From Crambe crambe (lineage: Eukaryota > Porifera > Demospongiae > Poecilosclerida > Crambeidae): 64,000 nucleotides of DNA. Below the pieces are notes generated by a model. It made no database searches. It was given only the letters and a program-made list of their open reading frames with translations, and was not told the origin of the DNA. The stretch covers positions 3,906,001 through 3,970,000 of the forward strand of contig OZ004592.1 of NCBI GenBank assembly GCA_963924555.1. The letters are read 5' to 3'. Of the stretch, positions 7,753 through 57,400 are shown piece after piece; positions within the stretch are counted from its first letter, which is position 1; the number at the start of each line of letters is the position of its first letter. A program made the translations under genes and the position numbers.

Positions 7753-8957
7753 CCACCACCCTGAATTAGTAGCACCTGTCCTTATAGTATTTTAGGTATG
7801 AAAAGGGATAGCTATATTAATTCCTTCAAAGTCAAGCTTATTATGCTTTTCACTGATTATTGAACTCATTATAGCGATTAAAATGGTTTCTGCACTAGCT
7901 AAATGACACCTATTATTTCTTTGTTTTGATACATACAAATGGCACCCCAATATTATACTGCACTGATATGGGGAAAAAATAAAATTGGGTTGCATAAAGA
8001 AAGGACATAGCTAACCCTGACTGATGATACTTATTGCTGGACATACATACATAAACTAAATGAAACACAGTTGAGATAATTATTAGCTATATATGATGTA
8101 GAGGGAACTTGGTGTTCCCTAATTTCTTTAGTATTCAGGACATGTCGCTTAGGCCGAGCAGAGTTTATCGTCACCTCCCTCATCATCAAAATATTGAATT
8201 TTTAGTGAGGCATTTCAGACAAAAATTTAAAAAATTGGTACATTTTATTCATTTGATTATCCAAAGTACAATATTGAATGGTGACCAGGTTCCCTCCCTC
8301 ATGGAAATCTGTGTTTGTGTGGGCTTATCAGGGAAGTGAATATGTTCCTCTGCTGGTTCTTTCACATGTTGGGTGGCTCATACTTATTATTAGCTGGTTA
8401 ATTAGCTAGTTTATCATGTCATGTCCCTTACAACATGGAACGACTGACTAGCTACGTTGCAAGACATAGGAGGCGGAAGGTGGGGGCTGGAGGGGCTAGA
8501 GCCCCCCCAATATTCAGAAGGTGGGGGCTGAGCCCCCTCAAAAATGATGGATTATGACATCACAAGTGTAACTGAATGTAGTTTGCTGCAGTTGTTTTTT
8601 TTTTGTTGTTGTTTTTGTTTATATTTTTAGGCAGCTTAGTTAGCTAACAAGCTATAATATTCAGTGCATGGGAATTGAGACTTGAGACATCACCCTAGAA
8701 CCTCAAAGAATGTATCAGATCCAATCCAATGAGGCTTAAAATCCATCCTGTGCCCACAGACCCCCCTAGAAGGCACTCTATGTAGTGTGATCACTATTGT
8801 TACACTCAGCCCTCCCAAAATAGATGACCTTCCTCCCCCTATGCAAGAGACTAGCAGATCGTAGCTATAGCTAGCTATTCGCGATGGAAACATTCTACCC
8901 GGGGAAACACTTACCACTGCCGGCAATGAATCTTCGCAGTTCAGTGCTCAATGTGCG
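7753..8957. other. Inner right part of element B, no gene seen
   Basis: Nothing coding is supported. A purine/pyrimidine-biased patch near 8460-8545 repeats gtgggggctg and gagcccccc, and a T-rich tract lies at 8588-8620. Short frames here have no recognisable content. Confidence 0.6.
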
Positions 8958-9083
8958 GGGAAACATTCCTCCCTAGGGTTATATGTGCGGGGAAACACGC
9001 AACCCGGGGAAACAGAAATCACTGCAACACCGGATCTATAGCATAGGATTGCACCGTCCGGTTGCCGGAACAATAGCCACTGC
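8958..9083 (-). repeat. Right TIR of element B (126 bp)
   Basis: Perfect reverse complement of 44-97 plus 5051-5122. The inner part contains repeated TTTCCCC blocks. It is the intact reference that shows how the left TIR was split. Confidence 0.88.
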
Positions 9084-9195
9084 GTAAAAATAATACAGGG
9101 CGCTTTTCTAACAACTAATAAAATGTGATTAGTTGCTAGCTGGCGCTTAAATTATAGTGGCGCTTGAATTACAGCATAGATATATTACACCATAT
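9084..9195. other. Gap between elements B and E with a possible pogo-type end relic
   Basis: Contains ggcgcttaaattatagtggcgcttgaatt. Read on the minus strand this resembles the subterminal AAGCGCCACT..AAGCGCCA pattern of the pogo element at 21703. Too short to define an element. Confidence 0.3.
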
Positions 9196-10133
9196 GATTA
9201 CACCTTAGATAATTAGACTACGTACACAGGATTGGAAACAGCTCACGTGCGCCCATTATGCTAATACAAATCGTCGCGGACTATCCGTGTTGCTATGCGC
9301 GAAGGAAAATTGGAAATTTATTCCTTGTTTCTCGAGTATACTTTTCATGAAAGGAGAATAACTGGTGAGTTTTAGCATCAAATAAAGGGCTACTTTACAG
9401 AGTATGTTCCAGGGATGTGAAATGTGTTTCTTAAGTATAGTTAGTTTGCTCATAAAATAGTTTTCCATGAAGATTTTTATCACCCTAGCAACGGATAAAG
9501 TTTTTTTCTTCTTTCATTGCAAAGGCATAATTCCTGTGTCCTTTTAATGAAGTTTATGTTATTGAGTGATGCTTGCCATACGGAATGGTGTGCATAATAT
9601 ATGTTTTTGTCCTGAATCTTTGATGCTTTCTGGCTTTTTCTGTGTTTGGAGGTGTATATTTTTGCTTTCTTTCACACAAAAGGCACTGTTGCATGAGCAA
9701 TGAAATTTTGCTGACTGATAAAGTTAGTGCTGCAGTTTGGAATAGCATCAATCCCATAAGCTGCAGTGACCAAAATTATAGCTAATGTACATGCTAACTT
9801 ATCCACATTGATTTATTAGTTACAGCTATGCCAAGGAGGAAAAAAAGCAAACTGTGTGTCAAAAAACATGGAAATAAGAACATTCTCAAGGTGCCATTAT
9901 CTTCAAGTCCTGCTTCTAGTATCAGTGATCTTTCAATCACCTGGACAGACTTCCATCTAAATGGGTCAGATTGAAAGAGCCCAACCTCACCTTTTGGTGA
10001 AACTCTCAAAATGCCCAAATTCCACAGCAGTTTGTTCACTCTTTAGTGTTACCATATCATCAAAATTAAGCTAGTATATCAGCAGTAGAAACTTTATAAT
10101 TATAAAATTATAATACCTACATAATAATTAATT

Positions 10134-19384: not shown

Positions 19385-22300
19385 ATGGTTCCAAACATAT
19401 GAAGGGAGATGTAAAAAAATGGCACTTTTTTCACTTTTTTCACATTTATCTTTTTTTCTTTGGAACTATACCCCCCCTTGAAATCCCTTCATTCATTCAA
19501 AGCAGCTAGGCCCATAGAAGCTATGATAGGAGTATCAAAGGCCTCCTAAGTATGTGGTAATTTAAAAGAATTTTTTTATTTAATGAGGTCATGTCAGGTC
19601 TTCCATATATGGGGGGTGTAAAGTTGTAACTAAGTACACTATTGGAAAGCTCTCAAAGAGAGCTCTCTTTTGAGACCTAAATCAAGCTTATAGGGGGTAG
19701 TATAATGAAGATATGGACGTTTTAAAATTTTTATTTTTTATGGTGTAGGACACCCTTTGAGCAATTATTCTATTGTATAGCTATTGGACAAATTAGAAAT
19801 CCAAAGCTTGACACTGAGTTTAACCAAATTGAATATATCTAACACCAATAGGATTTTTGCCTCGGCACCAAAGTGCCGAGGTACTGTGCTGGAAGCGACT
19901 ATGATCGGCAATGGTGGTACGTTTCATGCACACGTGCAATGATGCACGATGATGCGTATTGAGCACGTGCATTAATTTAGCTCTGCGCTTAGTAGCTAGC
20001 TAGACATACAGTACTAAGGACAAACAGACAGGCTCAGGCTCGCAGTCCACTTAGTGCTGATGCTTCTTGGCCGTCTTTTACCAACAAATCAAGCCCATTA
20101 TCACATGCAGAGAACTGACTAAAAGACAGCAGTGAACAAAAACAACAGAGATTGCAGTGTACACGAACTAGTGATCGTTTGAAGTGTCAAAGAGAGAGCC
20201 ATGGTGAAGGAGAATCTCAGAACTAAGACTTTAAGGCTTCCAAACAATGAGAGAATCCAGTACACATACTTCAATCAAGCTATGCTTGAGAATAACCATT
20301 AAACAGCAGTTCCAAATCGTTGAACAGCAAAAATACTAGCTGTGTAAATACTAATCTTACTACAATATAAGCCATGTTGCTCAGTGTGCACTCTCCACAG
20401 AAAAGAAGCTATTTTGGCAACATTTTGTAGAAACATTTGACCCCACAACCCCCTGCACTTTTCATATGCCCATGCAGCAAGTGTTCAGCAATTCCAAACA
20501 TAATCATCCTTGTAGGACTCTGGCTTCAAGCCGGTGATCCTTCAGTGTATCTTTATTGTCTACTATATACCACTGTCACGTCATATTCACTGTAAAGCAT
20601 TTAAAATAAATAAACATAGAAAGGTTGCACTTAAGTGCCGAGGCATTCCTAGTCTTTTTAAAAGACTATTTATTCAATGTTGTTATTGTTCATGTTCTCT
20701 CTTACAGACCCCTCCCTTAACCTCACTAATCTCACTAAGCTGTTGGAGGATGTGGAGGATTGGGATGATGTAGGTAAATGTCTTGCCATCCCTGACTCAG
20801 TGCGTGATATCAGCAAACAACACTCCAGTATGTCCCAACGTAAGGAAGCTTGCTGGGAATGGTACCTGAATAACCACCCATCCCCATCGTGGCATGACAT
20901 AGCATATGCTCTATATATGAATGAGGAGCATGAAGTGCTGGAAGTGTTAAAGAGTCAGTACCTCAAAGGTGGGTTGCATATTGTAAGTGGTATGACATGA
21001 TCAGTGGTACTATAAGTGTACGTATATACTATAGAGCCATGCATGTGATTAACCTCAGTGCATGCAAGTGTGTATCTGTGTATCTGTGACATCCACCACA
21101 CTGCCAGTAGTGATTAGAGCGCTTCAATTTCAGCCTTAACGATGTCCAGACGATACTCTCCAGTGTTTAAAATGAGCTGATTTCGGAAAAGGCTTTATTC
21201 CGGCAAGAAGGGCAGCTCCTTACTTAGCCTCGTACCCAGGCCTTTTCCTTTTCGGGGGGAGGGGAGGAAAAGGGCCTGGTATAGATTGCATGCGCATGCG
21301 CCAAATCCAATGAATTCCTTGGGCTCCGTTACATTTTTAGTAGTCTACCGTTACACGTGACGACAAAAATCATTACGTCATTCGACTTATTTCGAGAAGA
21401 TGGCTGAGAGTTCATGCCAAGATTCTTTTGATTCTGCTGTTGCGTATGGTCTTGCTACGCTCGCCTCCCCTCATCTCACCCTCAAAAGAGAACAGTTACT
21501 ATCAGTGAAAGCTGTGTACGATGGGAAAGACGTGTTCGTGTTGCTATACCGACGGGGTTTGGGAAGAGCCTCTGCTACCAGATTCTCCCTTTTGTCTTCG
21601 ATCATAAGCTTGGTTTGATAGGCTCAGACAGGAATAGCGCTGTTCTGATTATTTCTCCGCTAATTTCACTGATGGTGGACCAGGTCCAGAGTTTGAGAAT
21701 TACCGTACTCGATGGATTTAAAGCGCCACTGTAATATAAGGGCCACTTTATAAATTTCTTTTTTCTTTCCTTTGCAATTAAAGCGCCAAGCGCAATTTGA
21801 ATTATTTTTGGGTGGTGCTTACTGATTTAAGGCCAACTTGCAACTTGACATGATGTCTCAGACTCTGCACAATATTTCAAGAAGAGTTTTGAATTGGCCC
21901 CACTGACTGTTTCAGAAGGCCTACGCAATAAGGCAGGAACAAGCCAGCCAAAACAGAAGTGCCCAGTTGGTAGGCCTAGAAAGAGAACTAGAATTGATGA
22001 ATCACCTGATCAGGCTAGTGTTCCAGTACCATTACGGAGGCCTGAAGATCCTGTTGGAGACAGAGTTGGGGAGAAGGAAGCTGTTGTCACATCTCAGGCT
22101 ACACCTTCATGTGAACAGCAAAGTAAGTTTAAGTTAGAATCTAAGACTAAATAGCTAGCTACTGGCCTTATGCTGTAGGTCCTATAAAATAAATGAGGAC
22201 ACGGTACACCAGGGCTCAAAAGGCTAAAGTTGCACGCTATGCCAGGTTCCATGGGTCGAGAGCAGCAGCACGTCACTATTCTATTCACCATAAAAATGCT

Positions 22301-25300
22301 CAAAGGTGGCTAAAAGAGGATCTTGATAAGGTTACAATTATAAGGCGATCCAAACAAAAGAATAAGAAAGGACAAGGAAGGAAAGTAACACACCCACATG
22401 AGGTCGATGAAGAGTTATATAAATGGATTCTGGAAAAAAGAGAGGTAAACAATGTTTCAGTGTCAATTTTTTCCTTAAAGGCTAAGGCATTGTCTTTAAT
22501 TAAGCCTATACTGCCAATTTCAAGGCTTCTAATGGCTGGGTTCAAGGTTTTCGTAGATGTTTCAATTTAGTAATGCGAGCACAGACATCTATTGCTCAGA
22601 TGCTCCCTGCTGATCTCGAGAGCAAACTTACTAATTTCAGACAGGAAGTGAAGTATATTCGGCAAAATGGTGATTTTCAATACTCCTATAATTATAGCAA
22701 ACATGGATGAAACCCCTGTATATATGGATATGATACCAGGCAAAACCATTGATAAAAAGGGGAAGAAATCTATAAAGGTTCGCACTACCAAATCAGAAAA
22801 ACGTCGTGTTACTGCTGTCTTATCATGTACAGCAACTGGTGACATGTTGCCGCCAATGATAATATTTAAGGGTACAACTGCTCGATCAATTCGTGGTGTT
22901 ACCTCGAATAATGCTATTATATCTTATCAAAAGAAAGCATGGGTTGATGAGGGACAAATGCTGAAATGGATCAAGGAAGTGTGGATTAAGTACACCAAAA
23001 AAGCCCCAAGTTTACTTTTTTTGGACAGTTTCAGTGCTCATACAACTCAGGCTGTAAAAGATTCATTCAAGCAGTATAATACTACTATTATAGTCATTCC
23101 AGGTGGATTAACATCGGTATTGCAGCCATTGGATGTTAGTATTAACAAGCCAGTCAAGAACCACTTGAGGCATTCATGGGAAGATTATATGTTACAGAAT
23201 ACCAATAGTGGTAATCCAGCTAAGCCATCTAAACAACGCATTGTTGAGTGGATCGTGGAGGCAAATGGAATGATTGATAGTAATAAATGTATTGTGAAGA
23301 AATCTTTTTTAGTAACAGGTCTATCCAATGCATTAGGTGGCTATGAAGATGCACTGATCAGAAATGACTTGATCAGGAGAGAAATTGATGAAGTTATTGG
23401 AGAGGTGTTTGGGGATGCTATGGGTTTTCAAGAACCTCATTCAGATGGTGATCCATTTGAAAGTTCTGATGATGATGCTGATGACGATGTTCAAGGCAAT
23501 GGTTCTGAAATTTCAGGTACCATTTCTACTTCAGCAGATTCATCTAATCTAGAGCCATACTCCTTACTAAACGATAGTTTTGATGAACCAGATACAACTG
23601 CCACAGAATCAGATTCTATTTCAGCTCCTGAATTTGAACCATGGTCTGGCAGTGATCATGATTTTTCGTGTTAAGAATAATATAGCAGCTAGTAATGATG
23701 ATAAATGAAATGTTTAATCAATAAGTTTGAACTGTGCCTCTTCCAAAATTGTTCTAAGTTTGGCAATTAGTTTTTTTTCCCCTCTAAATGTATATATACA
23801 AGGGATCTCTAGTCCTCCTTCCAGAAGAACAGATCTCTGTCTATTTCCAGTGATTCTGCACAAAATTTCTGTTTTATATCTAGCCAGGAACATCCAACAA
23901 GTTTTTGATATTTCCCTTGGAATGTGCCCAACTACACCAATGCCAGTCTTCATCACTGCTACAGCATATTGATCCTCAGGATTCCCATGCTCCCATGCAC
24001 CTCACCTAAAAATTAACCATATCATTCTATAATAAACATATACCCATTTAAGTTACCTACAACAGGTGCCCAAAGTGACATATAAACATGAAATCCACGG
24101 ACCACACTCACAATACTTGCTTCAAAATCGCCCATTATTAGTAAGCGCCACTCTAATATGAGCGCCACGTGTGGTGGAAATTTTTTTTTTTTACTTGTAG
24201 TTAGAGCTCCAAGGTCACAACTAATTAATTTTTCCTGGCGCTTTAAATCCATCGAGTACGGTATTATCTCATCTGGTACAGCAATCGCGGAGAATTTACT
24301 AGCAACTGATTCAAGTCTCCTGAGTGACAGCCTCCTTTTTTGTGCCCCTGAATCTCTCATGAAGATCAGATGGAGAGAGGCTCTTGAGAACCAATCTGTT
24401 TCATCAGGAATTGTGGCAGTAGTCGCAGATGAGGTTCATTGTGTCTCCAAGTGGTAAGTAGATATGCATACACAGATATAGATATAGCTAACTTCCCTAA
24501 CATGAAAATAAGTTTGTATGTTGGTATATGTAGGAGCAAAGAATTTCGTCCTTCCTTTGGCCATATTGCTGAGATCAGCGCTCTGGTGCCTCCTGGTACT
24601 CCGTACATGGCACTCACAGCAACTGCTACCAAGAGCGTGCACAGCGAAGTGATGCAGTGTCTAGAGATGGAAAAGTGTGTGCAGATCAGCTTGTCACCGG
24701 ACAGGCCGAACATCTTTTATGAAGTCCGTGGTCGCACAACTATTGAGTTGGATTTGGCATGGCTGATACTTTCTCTTCGAGAAAACCTGCAGAAGACCCC
24801 TCGAGTGATTGTGTACTGCCAATCATTAGACATGTGTTCATCTATATATGCTGACTTTCACTTGAGATGCATCATACTATCCAGTTGGTGCTGCACATCT
24901 CAGTGAAAATCGCCTGTTTGGCATGTTCCACTCAAATACCCCTCAACACAATAAGGATATCATCCTTCAGAGCTTTTTGAAGCCTGATGGTATTGTGAGA
25001 GTAGTTTTTGCCACTATTGCTCTAGGGATGGGAGTTAACCTTCAGGATGTTAACTGTATTGTCCACTATGGTGCTCCACGGAGCATCGAGGATTAATTTC
25101 AGGAGAGTGGGAGGGGAGGAAGAAGTGGTGATAATGCACAGTCGATTATCTATTGGAAGCCTTCTGATTGTAAGGTTCGAAGTGAGCCATCTACTCCACA
25201 GCATCATGAAGCAATTGCTGTGAGAAGTTATCTGGAGAACACATCAACCTGCAGACGTCAGTGGCTACTGGAGTACTTCCTTCCAGGGTGTGCACAACCA

Positions 25301-28300
25301 GAAGACAAAGATAGGTGTTGTGATGTGTGCTCTCTGAAAAGCTGAACATCCAGTGAGTATATATTTCCATTCTCCCTTTACATTTATGTGAATTATTTTA
25401 TTTTCTCTTTGTTTAAACATCTATATCACTATCACTATCACTTCCATTCTCTTCACTGTCATCACTAATCATGTCAGCTCTAAATCTCCCTTTATATTTC
25501 AAGTAGGATTTCTTTTTCTCTTTAATCCAGGACTTCGTTTTTTTCATATCCCACTTGTGTAATGGGTTCAGTTGCAGGTTTGGGAAGGACCTGTGCTTCC
25601 TGGATTTGACTGGTGTGATGAGCCTGTGCTGAGATACTATCCTGAAAACTTTTTTGATGTCACTGGTGTCTGATTGAGTTGAGTGAGCACTGGTGATGCA
25701 TGGAACATTGGATTCCTCATCAAACCTCTCACTGATAAGGCTGAGGCTGGATACACTGCGTGCTGCTCTCTGCAAGGAATCTTCTGTTAGGTTGGAACCC
25801 ATGTTGATAATTATATTCTTAATCAGCTTATTCATGTGTTCATTGAATAGGTCGCATGGAATATTTCTTCCAATCCCTCCCTTGACATTTACGAACCTAT
25901 TCCACCTGACCTGGTGGGCAAGATTCGGAGAGAGGACAATACTGGTCTGGAACTGAAGTCTGAGGGCTTCAAGTGCATACTTGGAACTGCCAGATGTTTT
26001 AAAATGTGGCATGAACAGTTTCCAACAGCGCAACATCCTGTCACCATTTCCTTCAGCCCAGGCATCCCGAAACTCCATCACCAGGCTACCATAGTGGCAG
26101 AGCACGCGGGCATAGTTGTAGACAGTGTCATCAGTCACCGTATCATCTTCACTGTTATCTCCGCCACTCACAAAAGCTGAGTCTACAAGAGTCATCCGTT
26201 CAACAACCTCCTCTGCTATTCCTTTGATAAACAAAAGCTGCTCTGCTGTGCCTGCCTTCTTCAAGCCAGGTGGTACCTTGATGGTCTCATCAAGATTTGA
26301 AATCCCAAGAACCTCGCAAGCACAGACCAGCCAATGACCAATCACCACAGTGTTCAGGAAATCAACAGTGGCATCAACTTGCTTCTTTGGTTCCTTGCCA
26401 ATAGTGACACGGTTTAGCCTGGTCTTAAAGAAGGCAAGTGTGCCATAATCACCAGATGACCTGCGGTTAGTAAGATTGTTATTTTATATTATTTTATTAT
26501 TATTAATATTATATTTACTTTCAGCAGGCACACAAGAGCATGCCAATCCTCAACCACTGGCTCCAATAGCTCCATACGTTCTCGTGGTGTATCCCCATCC
26601 ATCAGATGCCTCTGTGCCCCAATCTGACACTCAACTGTGAGATGGTCCCCCCCACAAGCAACTACACGCTACCCTTCACCAAGGTAGCCCTGCATAGCAC
26701 TCATGATATCGATCATGTCCGTATGTTTAGCTTCATTCTTCATTAGAACATCAAGCACAAACACTTCTGATTTTTTGGACATAACCTTGGAGTACTGATG
26801 CTGGATATGTTTGGGCACAGCCTTAGCAAAAGGCACCAGTCCAGGAATGTAGTGCGTGAGGATGCGACTGACAAGAACTACCAGGTTCGTCTTCACACTC
26901 TGCACATCATCAGACGAAGGAAGGAAGAACTCTAAGGGGGTCTCATCAAGGGTTGATAGATGACCAATGTGAGGAAGCTCTGGAGCTGGTGTCCGGCTTA
27001 GACCAACCATAATGCTGAACATGTGGATCATCTTGCCTCCATTCAGAGCGATAGTCACGAATTTTCTGCTTTTTGTCAACATTGTCACCCCAGTACTTAA
27101 CCACAGCCCCATCCTTGATCCACTTCTCCAATGGCACCATATGCTTCTTGCTCAACTCATCAAGGTACTGGAGTAGCTAAGACAGATATTCAGGTGATTG
27201 AGTCGACTGTACATCTATATAGGTATATAAACAAAAATTTTTATTACGTATAGAATTGTATCAAGGAACAATGGTAACCTGTTTCTCACAGTGGCAGGAG
27301 TACATCAACATAGAAACAAGTGACTGAAGTCGACAGTTCCTCTCCTTCAACAGGACTGCAGCTGCAGTGCCAATCCCTGGATGATGTGCTGGGCCAACCT
27401 TCTTCTTATTTCTATGGTCATTCCTCACAGCTATGGAAGTGAGAATCTTCAGTAATAGTGGGGACTTTGACTCAAGCTCATCTATCAACGTATTCCACTT
27501 GAAAATTTTAAGCTGATCCACAGGGATGTGTCTGAAGTGAGAAACAGTGGATGTTTGGCATAGCACTGAACACTCTATTGATGGACTCTAAGAAGGATGT
27601 GAAAATAGCCTCTTTCACTGCCTCCATTGCCAAAACTGCACTGGCAATAGAAGGGGCATGTCCTTCAAGTAAAGCCATAGCAACTTTGCCTTCAGCATCA
27701 CCAAGACTCTGAGAAAAGGATGTTTCTTGTGATGGATTGTTAACTGTCACCTGTATTATAATGTGTGTATTCAAGTGGTGATGATGTCCTTTCTCTATGT
27801 AAGTTATTCTTACAATTATGCTCTTTTGATGCCTGCATATTCTCACTAACACCTGTTGAAAAAGGTTATATAACCTTTTTTTTTTTTTTCTTTTGGTCTT
27901 TCAGCAACTTACATGAAAGTGTGCAAGAAGAAAGGGGCACTGGTGAAGACACTGTTGATTGAACCACCTCACAAAGAATGCCGACCGACTCTCCTGCTAT
28001 AAGTGTACTATGTTTATTCTTTCACTATTTTTTATTTATAATTTAACTTACATTGAAAGTCTAATCTCTTGCATGACAGTTTGGAAGGAGGTCTCTCCCT
28101 AGAAGTGTCTGGAGACACTCCTACAGATCCGCTAGTCACTTTGTACCTCTTCACGGGACCTCTGATCTTCTCCTGCTTGGACAGTGATGACTTGGCCAAG
28201 ACTCTGAAAGCTGTGAAATCTGCAAGGGATTTTTCCAGGGACACAATTCGGTTCTTGCAATTGTCGCAAAAATATTGAGAGAGTCTATCATTGCAGTCAA

Positions 28301-31300
28301 TTGAAACTTCCAACAGACTTGAAATCCTTGAACTCCACTCGTGTTGGATACCAGAAGAGCTGAACAAGTTAATTGATCTCTTGGTAGTTGTTTCAGTAGC
28401 TACAAACCCTCGCGGTGCGAAGCCATTGTTTATACATGTACGTACATACACGCGCGAGTGGTTTTTTTATGAGTAATGTCGTCATTGTATAATTACTTAA
28501 CGCGAGTATACGTCATAGGGTGTAAAATTATGTAATACCGCGTAGTAACCAACGTATAAATTAAGCGCATGCGCATGCAATCTATACCAGGCCCTTTTCC
28601 TCCCCTCCCCCTGAAAAGGAAAAGGCCTGGGTACGAGGCTACTCCTTACTATATGTAATATCTTATCCACACCTGCATGAGAATGATGCTATACTGAAGG
28701 TAAGTGCATTACATCACCGAGAGCATCATTTGAGTGCACCATACATGGAGCTAGATCAGAGTGATCTAAGCAATTTAGTGCTGATCACATGACTTGGATC
28801 TAATCGGATTCCAGTTGGAGCATTCTTATGACTCACCATAATCTTTCTTTTATCGTATCTAGCAAGTTCTGAACTTCTGACACATGTTTGGTTTTTAAAG
28901 AATGCATGCAATTATCGATGAAGTTTAAAAAATAAATGAGGTAAATTCCTGAGGTTTTCCTTCTTGAAACCCAATGTAACTAGTGAAATGCTAAAGTATA
29001 TAAAAGAAGATATTTAGCTCCTCACTTAGGCCAGACCAATTTGAATGTTGCTTCCAGAAAGTGACCTTGGTGGCAGGAATAAATTTATAAGAACCAAAAA
29101 TAATTGTTATACATAAAGTGACTCGTGGAAGGAACAATTTTTAGTTCCAATGAATAATTATATTATACAAAGAAAGCATTGATTTCCTGTCAAGAAAAAA
29201 TAAAATACTAGTCCAGAGTTTTTCAAATATTACTGACAGCTCATAATGTGGTCCATCTGTGCGGCACAGGAAACATATTGGTCTTACCAAGGTTTCATTT
29301 AGAAATTTGTCCGGGGGGGGGGGGGGGGGGGCAGATACAAGTATATGGAAGGGGGGAAATTATGAGGCCATGTAGGGTAAACACGTAGGGTGAACAAACA
29401 TCAAAATTATGCTGTCTTCAATAATAATCCCTACATCACTCCCTAAACTAAGCAGAACACTTTTACACTGACATGAACAATGAAAGCAGCTTGGTGGGAG
29501 GCGGTGATGTAGGGATTATTATTGAAAACAGCATAATTTTTATTACAGAAACTGCCATAGGTTAAAGTATTAGCATAATTTTTTTTTCCTTTCACTTGTT
29601 TGTTTACTTTTTATATGACCTTTGGATATTAATGTTTTAATAGCTCACTGGGCGCGCACGTGCATACGTACGAGGGGGGATTTTCTTGGGTGGGGTCCCC
29701 CCTTCCTAATCCACAGGGAGGGCTAGAGTACAAGAAGGAAATGTACATACAGCCTGATACAGGTAGGTAATTACTCTCAGTTGACACAGTAGGTGTTGCA
29801 GAAATTCCCTTCTGCCTCATGGCTCATCCATGCAGAACAGGTTGTGTATGAAAGCTCACTGTTGTAAATTTTCAAGGGGGGAGGGCAAAAAATTACCACT
29901 TCATCTTCCACTAGTGTTTGACCACCACAATGGAAAGTTTGCTGTACGAGTACTGTAATACTGAGGTTCAGCAGGATCTTGGCAAGTAAGAGAACGAGCT
30001 ATAATGGTGGAGTGATTGGTGGAAATAATATACTTCCACTTCCTCAAGATCACACGGCATATTTTTCTCTTCTGGTTTAAGCTTCAGAGTACACACACCT
30101 ATATGAACAAGAAAATTATATGGAAAGTACAAAGACATGGTTTGAAACGTTCTACTGTAGTATTTCTGCTACTAGTCAACTATAAACTCAAATAGAGTGA
30201 AAACTTTTATCCAACTATAGATTCAACAACTGACAGAAAAATGATAACTTTGTGATTAAAAAGCATTATGTGCACATACAATATACCACAAACAAGATAA
30301 CATGACCACACAAATACAATTACATAAATCAATCAAGACCAGTTAACTATAGCTAATAACCTGCATAGTTGGAGTACTCAATGGCACCATATGATTCTGA
30401 CATCCATCCATCACTTATTTCAACCTCAGCTTCACCAGATATCAATGCTAATTCATTTATAAATTAAAAAGTGACATCATCATTTTAGTCACGTGATCAA
30501 AAGGAGTCCATGTGTGTGTGAAATTTGGAAAATGGCCGTTAATAGTTGCTGAGGCAAGAAGGGGTAACACACTTTTGCTTCCCTCTACTGTAATAGTTGA
30601 AATGTTTGGATCTGTTTTAGAAAGAGCTATAATTATACCCAGTGGACTCATGAAGCAATATTTCAAGTTGGTCTGGCCTTACTGTAAGCTGAGGCTGGAA
30701 GGTCATAGTCCTAGTGGATCTTCCATTAGGCTCCTGCAGAATTGTTATATTAAGCTCGTAGCACAGAAGGGCAAGCGAAGCAACATAGCTTGCTATTAAA
30801 ACTTTAAATGTTGCATTATGATATTTTGGAGTTGCATGCATGCCCTCTTCTCGTAGAGTCTATAAGGCCTTGATTCTACTAACCTAGCTTCTCTTTGTTC
30901 AGCACACTCTGAATCTTTTTTGTACAGCCTTATTTCCCTTCTCCTTTATTTCTTCTGTACTTGGCATCCGCAGACTCTGCTTGTCGTTTTCTTCTTTCTC
31001 TATCCCTTTCTCAGAGCTTCTTCTGGCTCTATCCTTCGCATTCCTTCGGTCTAACCTTGCTCTTTTTTGCTGCTCATTTTTGCAGTGTTCATTCAACATG
31101 CATCGTTGGCTAAAAGTTTTGCAATCATTTCTATAGCTATTTTGCGCATGTGCAGTATTTTACACTCAGGGGTTGACGTACGTACACTCACAAATATATA
31201 TCGCCACTATTCACATTGCACACCATAGAAAGGGGCTCGCTTTGCTCACCATTGAAAAATTTTACGCACATGCGCATTGGAGATGAATTTTCCCCCACCC

Positions 31301-54400: not shown

Positions 54401-57400
54401 AGTGTGCACTCTTCACAGAAAAGAAGCTATTTTGGCAACATTTTGTAGAAACATTTGACCCCACAAACCCCTGCACTTTTCATATGCCCATGCAGCAAGT
54501 GTTCAGCAATTCCAAACATAATCATCCTTGTAGGACTCTGGCTTCAAGCCGGTGATCCTTCAGTGTATCTTTATTGTCTCTTATATACCACTGTCACGTC
54601 ATATTCACTGTAAAGCATTTAAAATAAATAAACATAGAAAGGTTGCACTTAAGTGCCGAGGCATTCCTAGTCTTTTTAAAAGACTATTTATTCAATGTTG
54701 TTATTGTTCATGTTCTCTCTTACAGACCCCTCCCTCAACCTCACTAATCTCACTAAGCTGTTGGAGGATGTGAAGGATTGGAATTTCGTGAGGGGTGGTC
54801 TTGCCATCCCTTACTCAGTGTATGATAGTATCAGCGAACAACACTCCAGTATGTCCCAACGTAAGGAAGCTTGCTGGGAATGGTACCTGAACAACCACCC
54901 ATCCCCATCATGGCGTTACATAGCATATATTCTATGTGTGTTTATGGAGCATGAAGTGCTGGAAGTGTTGAAGAGTCAGTACCTCAAAGGTGGGTTGCAT
55001 ATTGTAAGTGGTATGACATGATCAGTGGTACTGTAAGTGTATATACTATAGAGCCATGCATGTGATTAACCTCAGTGCATGTGCAAGTGTGTATCTGTGT
55101 ATCTGTTACATCCACCACAGTGCCAGTAGTGATTAGAGCGCTTCAATTTCAGCCTTAACGATGTCCAGACGATACTCTCCAGTGTTTAAAATGAGCTGAT
55201 TTCGGAAAAGGCTTTATTCCGGCAAGAAGGGCAGCTCCTTACTATATGTAATATCTTATCTAACTCTAACACACCTGCACGAGAATGATGCTATACTGAA
55301 GGTAAGTGCATTACATCACCGAGAGCATTATAGCATCATTTGAGTGCACCATGCATTAAAACACATGGAGCTAGATCAGAGTGATCTAAGCAATTTAGTG
55401 CTGATCACATGACTTGGATCTAATCAGATTCCAGTTGGAGCATTCTTATGACTCACCATAATCTTTCTTTTATCGTATCTAGCAAGTTCTGAACTTCTGA
55501 CACATGTTTGGTTTTTAAAGAATGCATGCAATTATCGATGAAGTTTAAAAAATAAATGAGGCAAATTCCTGAGGTTTTCCTTCTTGAAACCCAATGTAAC
55601 TAGTGAAATGCTAAAGTATATAAAAGAAGATATTTAGCTCCTCACTTAGGCCAGACCAATTTGAATGTTGCTTCCAGAAAGTGACCTTGGTGGCAGGAAT
55701 AAATTTATAAGAACCAAAAATAATTGTTATACATAAAGTGACTCGTGGAAGGAACAATTTTTAGTTCCAATGAATAATTATATTATACAGAGAAAGCATT
55801 GATTTCCTGTCAAGAAAAAATAAAATACTAGTCCAGAGTTTTTCAAATATTACTGACAGCTCATAATGTGGTCCATCTGTGCGGCACAGGAAACATATTG
55901 GTCTTACCAAGGTTTCATTTAGAAATTTGTCCGGGGGGGGGGGGGGGGGGGGGGTGGGGGGGGGTGGGGGGGGGGCAGATACAAGTATATGGAAGGGGGA
56001 AAAATTATGAGGCCATGTAGGGTAAACACGTAGGGTGAACAACATCAAAATTATGCTGCCTTCAATAATAATCCCTACATCACTCCCTAAACTAAGCAGA
56101 ACACTTTTACACTGACATGAACAATTAAAGCAGCTTGGTGGGAGGCGGTGATGTAGGGATTATTATTGAAAACAGCATAATTTTTATTACAGAAACTGCC
56201 ATGGGTTGAAGTACTAGCATAATTTTTTTTCCCTTTCACTTGTTTGTTTACTTTTTATATGACCTAATGTTTTAATAGCTCACTGGGCGCGCACGTGCAT
56301 ACGTACGAGGGGGGATTTTGGATTTTTTCTTGGGTGGGGTCCCCCCTTCCTAATCCACAGGGAGGGCTAGAGTACAAGAAGGAAATGTACATACAGCCTG
56401 ATACAGGTAGGTAATTACTCTCAGTTGACACAGTAGGTGTTGCAGAAATTCCCTTCTGCCTCATGGCTCATCCATGCAGAACAGGTTGTATATGAAAGCT
56501 CAGTACATGATTATTATCTGTTGTAAATTTTCAAGGGGGGAGGGAAAAAAATTACCACTTCATCTTCCACTAGTGTTTGACCACCACAATGGAAAGTTTG
56601 CTGTACGAGTACTGTAATACTGAGGTTCAGCAGGATCTTGGCAAGTAAGAGAACGAGCTATAATGGTGGAGTGATTGGTGGAAATAATATACTTCCACTT
56701 CTTCAAGATCACACAGCATATTTTTCTCTTCTGGTTTAAGCTTCAGAGTACACACACCTATATGAACAAGAAAATTATATGGAAAGTACAAAGACATGGT
56801 TTGAAACGTTCTACTGTAGTATTTCTGCTACTAGTCAACTACAAACTCAAATAGAGTGAAAACTTTTATCCAACTATGATTCAACAACTGACAGAAAAAT
56901 GATAACTTTGTGATTAAAAAACATTAAGTGCACATACAGGAAATACAATATTATACCACAAACAAGATAACATGACCACACAAATACAATTACATAAATC
57001 AATCAAGACCAGTTAACTATAGCTAATAACCTGCATAGTTGGAGTACTCAATGGCACCATATGATTCTGACATCCATCCATCACTTATTTCAACCTCAGC
57101 TTCACCAGATATCAATGCTCTTTCTAAAACAGATCCAAACATTTCAACTATTACAGTAGAGGGAAGCGAAAGTGTGTTACCCCTTCTTGCCTCAGCAACT
57201 ATTAACGGCCATTTTCCAAATTTCACACATGGACTCCTTTTGATTACGTGACTAAACTGATGATGTCATTTTTAAATTTATAAATGAAATTAGCTACCCA
57301 GTGGACTCATGAAGCAACATTTCAAGTTGGTCTGGCCTTACAGTAAGCTGAGGCTGGAAGGTCATGGTCCTAGTGGATCTTCCATTAGGCTCCTGCAGAA

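Follow-up and report, generated by a model that had tools for sequence, protein, structure and literature searches.

The 64,000-nucleotide stretch of DNA from the sponge Crambe crambe analyzed here (contig OZ004592.1, positions 3,906,001 to 3,970,000; called the window below) contains an inserted mobile element at positions 21225 to 28641, in which a RecQ helicase gene on the forward strand and a gene on the reverse strand encoding a protein of the Pfam family DUF6589 are convergent. We found that both boundaries of the element hold. Its ends are terminal inverted repeats of 77 bp with one mismatch, and reading across it, the window holds CTCCTTACT, then TAGCCTCGTACCCAGG..., and at the far end ...GGTACGAGGCTA followed by CTCCTTACT again, a perfect 9-bp target site duplication with 7,417 bp between its two copies. 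A paralogous flank 34 kb away contains a single CTCCTTACT and reads straight through without the element, with identity over 60 bp leftward (duplication included) and 17 bp rightward, and the wider flanks are approximately 93.5% identical to this paralogue. This match of the insertion to its empty site is not explicable by chance. The feature is thus a real insertion of a mobile DNA element, although not of a new kind, and the ends, duplication, and empty site described in an earlier reading of the sequence alone were all found again. We also observed a long G-rich simple repeat close to the empty-site paralogue, at 55933 to 55975.

Gene content and decay of the window element

Both genes named in the sequence-only reading are real and convergent, with Pfam scores in the window copy of 29.6 bits for the DEAD domain and 121.9 to 123 bits for the larger part of DUF6589. 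The DEAD, Helicase_C, RecQ_Zn_bind, and zf-AD domains of L011, a sister copy, all score above their Pfam cut-offs, and the RecQ exon of a diverged family, L029, has the Bloom syndrome protein as its best match among solved structures. The ZAD-like finger that had been proposed for the N terminus of the DUF6589 protein scored 20.3 bits in the window, 29.0 in L011, 23.4 in L029, and 14.4 in a third family, L047, against a cut-off of 28 bits, so that the proposal holds above the cut-off in L011 alone among these four and falls below it in the window itself. A DUF6589 protein from a fish record (P0128, Misgurnus anguillicaudatus; 40.5 bits) has an N terminus that appears ZAD-like by eye and is uncalled by Pfam.

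The statement that these are the only two genes inside the element did not survive. A third, encoding a DDE_1 transposase, lies in a nested pogo/Tigger-type transposon that splits the RecQ gene; this transposon has a TA on either side (21701 to 24263 with the TAs) and perfect inverted ends of 28 bp, flanking TA counted. Copies L010 and L011 do not contain it, and relative to them, 18 bp (one TA counted) are missing at its insertion point in the window. The DDE_1 transposase and TA flanks, features of pogo/Tigger elements of the Tc1/mariner group, are shared by the nested element alone, which is a separate later insertion outside the make-up of the surrounding element. Because it split the gene, no intact RecQ can now be produced from the window copy. 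The remaining RecQ sequence has also acquired one TGA, one TAG, and one TAA stop, and the DUF6589 gene has one TAA and one TAG.

Table 1. Features of the window element and its empty site, in window coordinates
Feature	Position	Strand	Remarks
Left target site duplication CTCCTTACT, 9 bp	21216..21224	.	
Left terminal inverted repeat, 77 bp	21225..21301	+	1/77 mismatch
RecQ gene, first part (DEAD)	21525..21698	+	PF00270, 29.6 bits, residues 32-89 of ORF (open reading frame) 21432-21734
Nested pogo/Tigger-type transposon, 2,559 bp, TA-flanked, interrupts RecQ	21703..24261	+	Not in L010, L011
Pogo-type transposase ORF (DDE_1)	22652..23674	+	PF03184, 104.8 bits
RecQ gene, continuation, DE-x-H box region	24262..24457	+	ORF 24092-24457; by-eye match to L011:4517-5065; DNA match
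RecQ gene, helicase C and zinc-binding part, 3 stops	24526..25339	+	Two overlapping matches, 54% and 60% identity to L029 RecQ
DUF6589 gene, main part	25413..26944	-	122-123 bits for larger part; 1 TAA and 1 TAG inside
DUF6589 gene, upstream exon region	27261..27900	-	Matches L011:7935-8549; no Pfam match
ZAD-like zinc finger, DUF6589 N terminus	28245..28391	-	20.3 bits, below cut-off of 28; L011 29.0
Right terminal inverted repeat, 77 bp	28565..28641	-	
Right target site duplication CTCCTTACT, 9 bp	28642..28650	.	
Empty (pre-insertion) site, paralogous flank	55235..55243	.	

Other copies and diverged families in the genome

A genome search with the terminal repeat, as the sequence-only reading had suggested, yielded a second copy 224 kb away (L009, C15:4150900-4159200) that is 99.78% identical to the window copy over 8.3 kb, flanks included. 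Since the identity extends into the flanks, L009 is the same insertion duplicated and not an independent one; it could have arisen by recent segmental duplication, or it may be an assembly duplicate. Two further copies, L010 and L011, are independent, and each is without one end. The gene-less copies of the repeat that we read proved to be derivatives of approximately 600 bp, with perfect 9- to 10-bp duplications in 3 of the 6 pairs read. In L011, we also observed an extra stretch (8857 to 9198, reverse strand) whose ORF, judged by eye, looks like a zinc finger of the BED/TTF type from hAT-like elements.

The convergent RecQ-DUF6589 pair recurs in two diverged families. The L029 element (L029:1307-6518) has ends of approximately 60 bp (a 63-bp repeat match overruns the flanks by 3 bases), and its duplication is unambiguously 10 bp; duplications of 10 bp are equally unambiguous in L021 and L023. 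In the third family, L047, the ends are approximately 70 bp (a 74-bp repeat match likewise overruns into the flanks) and the duplication is 10 bp; two further copies of this family, on C20 and C3, whose ends were read and whose genes are known from the genome searches, have duplications of 10 to 11 and 10 bp. Duplications were 9 to 11 bp in all five RecQ-DUF6589 copies with both ends read, although the three of the L047 family also allow a reading of 8 to 9 bp. An internal inverted repeat, CCAGGCC...GGCCTGG, is present in each end of the window element (21225-21301) and of the L029 element (L029:1307-1366); it could fold into a hairpin and is common to these two diverged families.

Genome-wide pairing of RecQ and DUF6589

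We searched the genome for DUF6589 and, with the L029 RecQ exon, for RecQ, and after merging matches on the same strand less than 4 kb apart in the former search, obtained 81 DUF6589 loci (from 110 matches) and, after merging, 67 RecQ loci (from 86 matches); these counts are lower bounds because both searches score the best candidates only. A RecQ locus was found within 8 kb of 42 of the 81 DUF6589 loci, compared with a chance expectation of approximately 0.6 pairs. In 41 of these, the two are convergent, with 223 to 1,068 bp between the matched stretches, which bears out the proposal that the two genes belong together; the remaining pair is in tandem, and its RecQ is also part of a convergent neighboring pair. 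No DUF6589 partner was assigned to 26 of the 67 RecQ loci. At one site (G000 C9:4427059-4432431), we observed two convergent pairs approximately 5 kb apart or less.

These data also bear on whether the insertion is a Mutator-like element (MULE) that captured a host RecQ-DUF6589 pair and was moved by a MULE transposase encoded elsewhere. Maize Mu elements are likewise described as having long inverted ends and 9-bp duplications (PMC2774946). However, the convergent pair recurs in three diverged families and at 41 loci, the duplications in L029, L021, and L023 are unambiguously 10 bp, and a Pfam scan of 10 of the 16 ORFs of at least 100 amino acids turned up no MULE transposase, all of which makes this explanation very improbable.

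A nuclease-bearing DUF6589 element in the same genome

DUF6589 also occurs without RecQ, and in the one such family that was fully examined, L030, its partner is a nuclease in another Academ-like element. The L030 family element (L030:704-7274) encodes DUF6589 and a FEN/XPG/XRN-like nuclease fused in one long ORF, with a CXC-like C terminus that scores below its cut-off. Its ends are short, and its duplications were 4 bp in all five copies with both ends read. A right-end query returned 11 matches, 6 of them full-length at 99 to 100% identity, and the family looks recently active. DUF6589 is thus common to the element with RecQ and a 9-bp duplication and to the element with a nuclease, short ends, and a 4-bp duplication.

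Probable assignment to AcademH

Academ transposons are described as dividing into AcademH, with a helicase and 9- or 10-bp duplications, and AcademX, with a nuclease and 3- to 4-bp duplications (PMC10045372). The L030 family has both an XPG-type nuclease and a duplication in the AcademX range, and DUF6589 would be common to AcademX and the window element if the L030 family is AcademX. The window element itself has RecQ in place of the XPG-type nuclease and a duplication of 9 bp, not 3 to 4 bp. It has terminal inverted repeats, a 9-bp duplication (9 to 11 bp across the five copies with both ends read), and a RecQ-type helicase, whose gene is broken in the window copy, and so has in common with AcademH, a DNA transposon of animals and fungi, both the helicase gene and the duplication length. 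Its helicase is a separate convergent gene. Since helicase with 9 to 10 bp versus nuclease with 3 to 4 bp is the published AcademH/AcademX split, we filed the window, L029, and L047 elements as new families of AcademH. The window feature is very probably a decayed AcademH copy with DUF6589 as its transposase and RecQ as an accessory helicase.

The view that RecQ in a transposon with terminal inverted repeats is an under-described arrangement was overstated. "RecQ Helicase in Academ" was already stated in 2013 (PMC3627910), AcademH was reportedly named by Kojima in 2020 (Mob DNA 11:15) and is given duplications of 9 or 10 bp (PMC10045372), and RecQ is reported for KolobokH too (PMC9587614). Because RecQ in Academ and AcademH itself were already described, the elements found here are families of a known kind. 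We also weighed whether the window element is KolobokH-like, with a Kolobok transposase plus RecQ. Kolobok belongs to a different transposase superfamily from the window element. The Kolobok duplication is TTAA, whereas that of the window element is CTCCTTACT, and the window element shares DUF6589 with the nuclease type that fits AcademX. KolobokH is a DDE transposon that likewise has RecQ, and Kolobok-1_CCri has RecQ on the complementary strand, but KolobokH is described as known only from fungi (PMC9587614), and a KolobokH origin is exceedingly improbable.

DUF6589 as the candidate transposase

DUF6589 is the only protein found in both element types and is therefore the best candidate for the transposase; most likely it represents the DDE transposase core of Academ. 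Conserved in it are aspartates in "DN-[VIL]-D" and "GD" and a glutamate in "NEH" or "DEAHE". In an AlphaFold model of the L030 protein, the first aspartate (D1) lies within a strand, at middling confidence, and the second (D2) directly after a strand, followed by a mostly helical stretch and then a short, low-confidence helix with glutamates. We infer that this order would fit an RNase-H-like core with a helical insertion, although the search for such a fold, proposed in the sequence-only reading, gave no match.

Several observations weigh against the assignment to AcademH with DUF6589 as transposase. The glutamate-bearing part of the L030 (AcademX-type) model has a predicted local distance difference test score (pLDDT) below 50, and matches to the nuclease domain took up its whole fold search. 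For an AcademH-type DUF6589 protein, the AlphaFold model has low confidence at all three of D1, D2, and E, and it had no PDB match at an E value of 0.001 or better. When the two DUF6589 groups were compared by profile, the match was weak (probability, 21.8%; E value, 0.00098), though members of both exceed the DUF6589 Pfam cut-off. Homology to published Academ transposases is supported indirectly, through the AcademX-like L030 family. In addition, no RecQ lies within 8 kb of 39 of the 81 DUF6589 loci, and the L047-family end is ambiguous: with the end taken as TAGTCTGG, one base outward, the duplications become 8, 9, and 8 bp.

Proposed mechanism

In AcademH elements of this kind, the ZAD-like N-terminal finger of DUF6589 and its adjoining region would probably bind the inverted ends, and the DUF6589 core would cut these ends and join them to the target with a 9- to 10-bp stagger, giving the duplication. 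RecQ, a helicase of 3'-5' polarity, would have an accessory role, probably in unwinding the ends or in helping to resolve the gapped product of strand transfer. Alternatively, AcademH might move not by simple cut-and-paste but replicatively or through a peeled single strand, with RecQ unwinding the element. Most DDE transposases excise without a helicase, and the ends of two families contain internal inverted repeats, both of which count toward such a route, but one clean insertion with its empty site fits both routes, and we consider the replicative one unlikely.

A further idea is that a single DUF6589 core can be served by either of two interchangeable accessory enzymes and that the duplication length is set by the accessory enzyme rather than by the transposase, approximately 9 to 11 bp with RecQ and 4 bp with the FEN-like nuclease. 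This idea, already hinted at in the literature (PMC10045372), is unlikely to be correct, and it is directly testable, as both types share one genome.

Implications

Our literature search found no paper naming DUF6589, the sole paper for PF20231 being an unrelated one on nanophotonics, and no paper joining Academ with sponge, Porifera, and transposable elements. A useful outcome of this work is a link between DUF6589, a Pfam family of "unknown function," and Academ transposons. One genome holds both the helicase-bearing and the nuclease-bearing type, which makes a side-by-side comparison possible, and annotators who meet a DUF6589 gene should check whether it belongs to a transposon.
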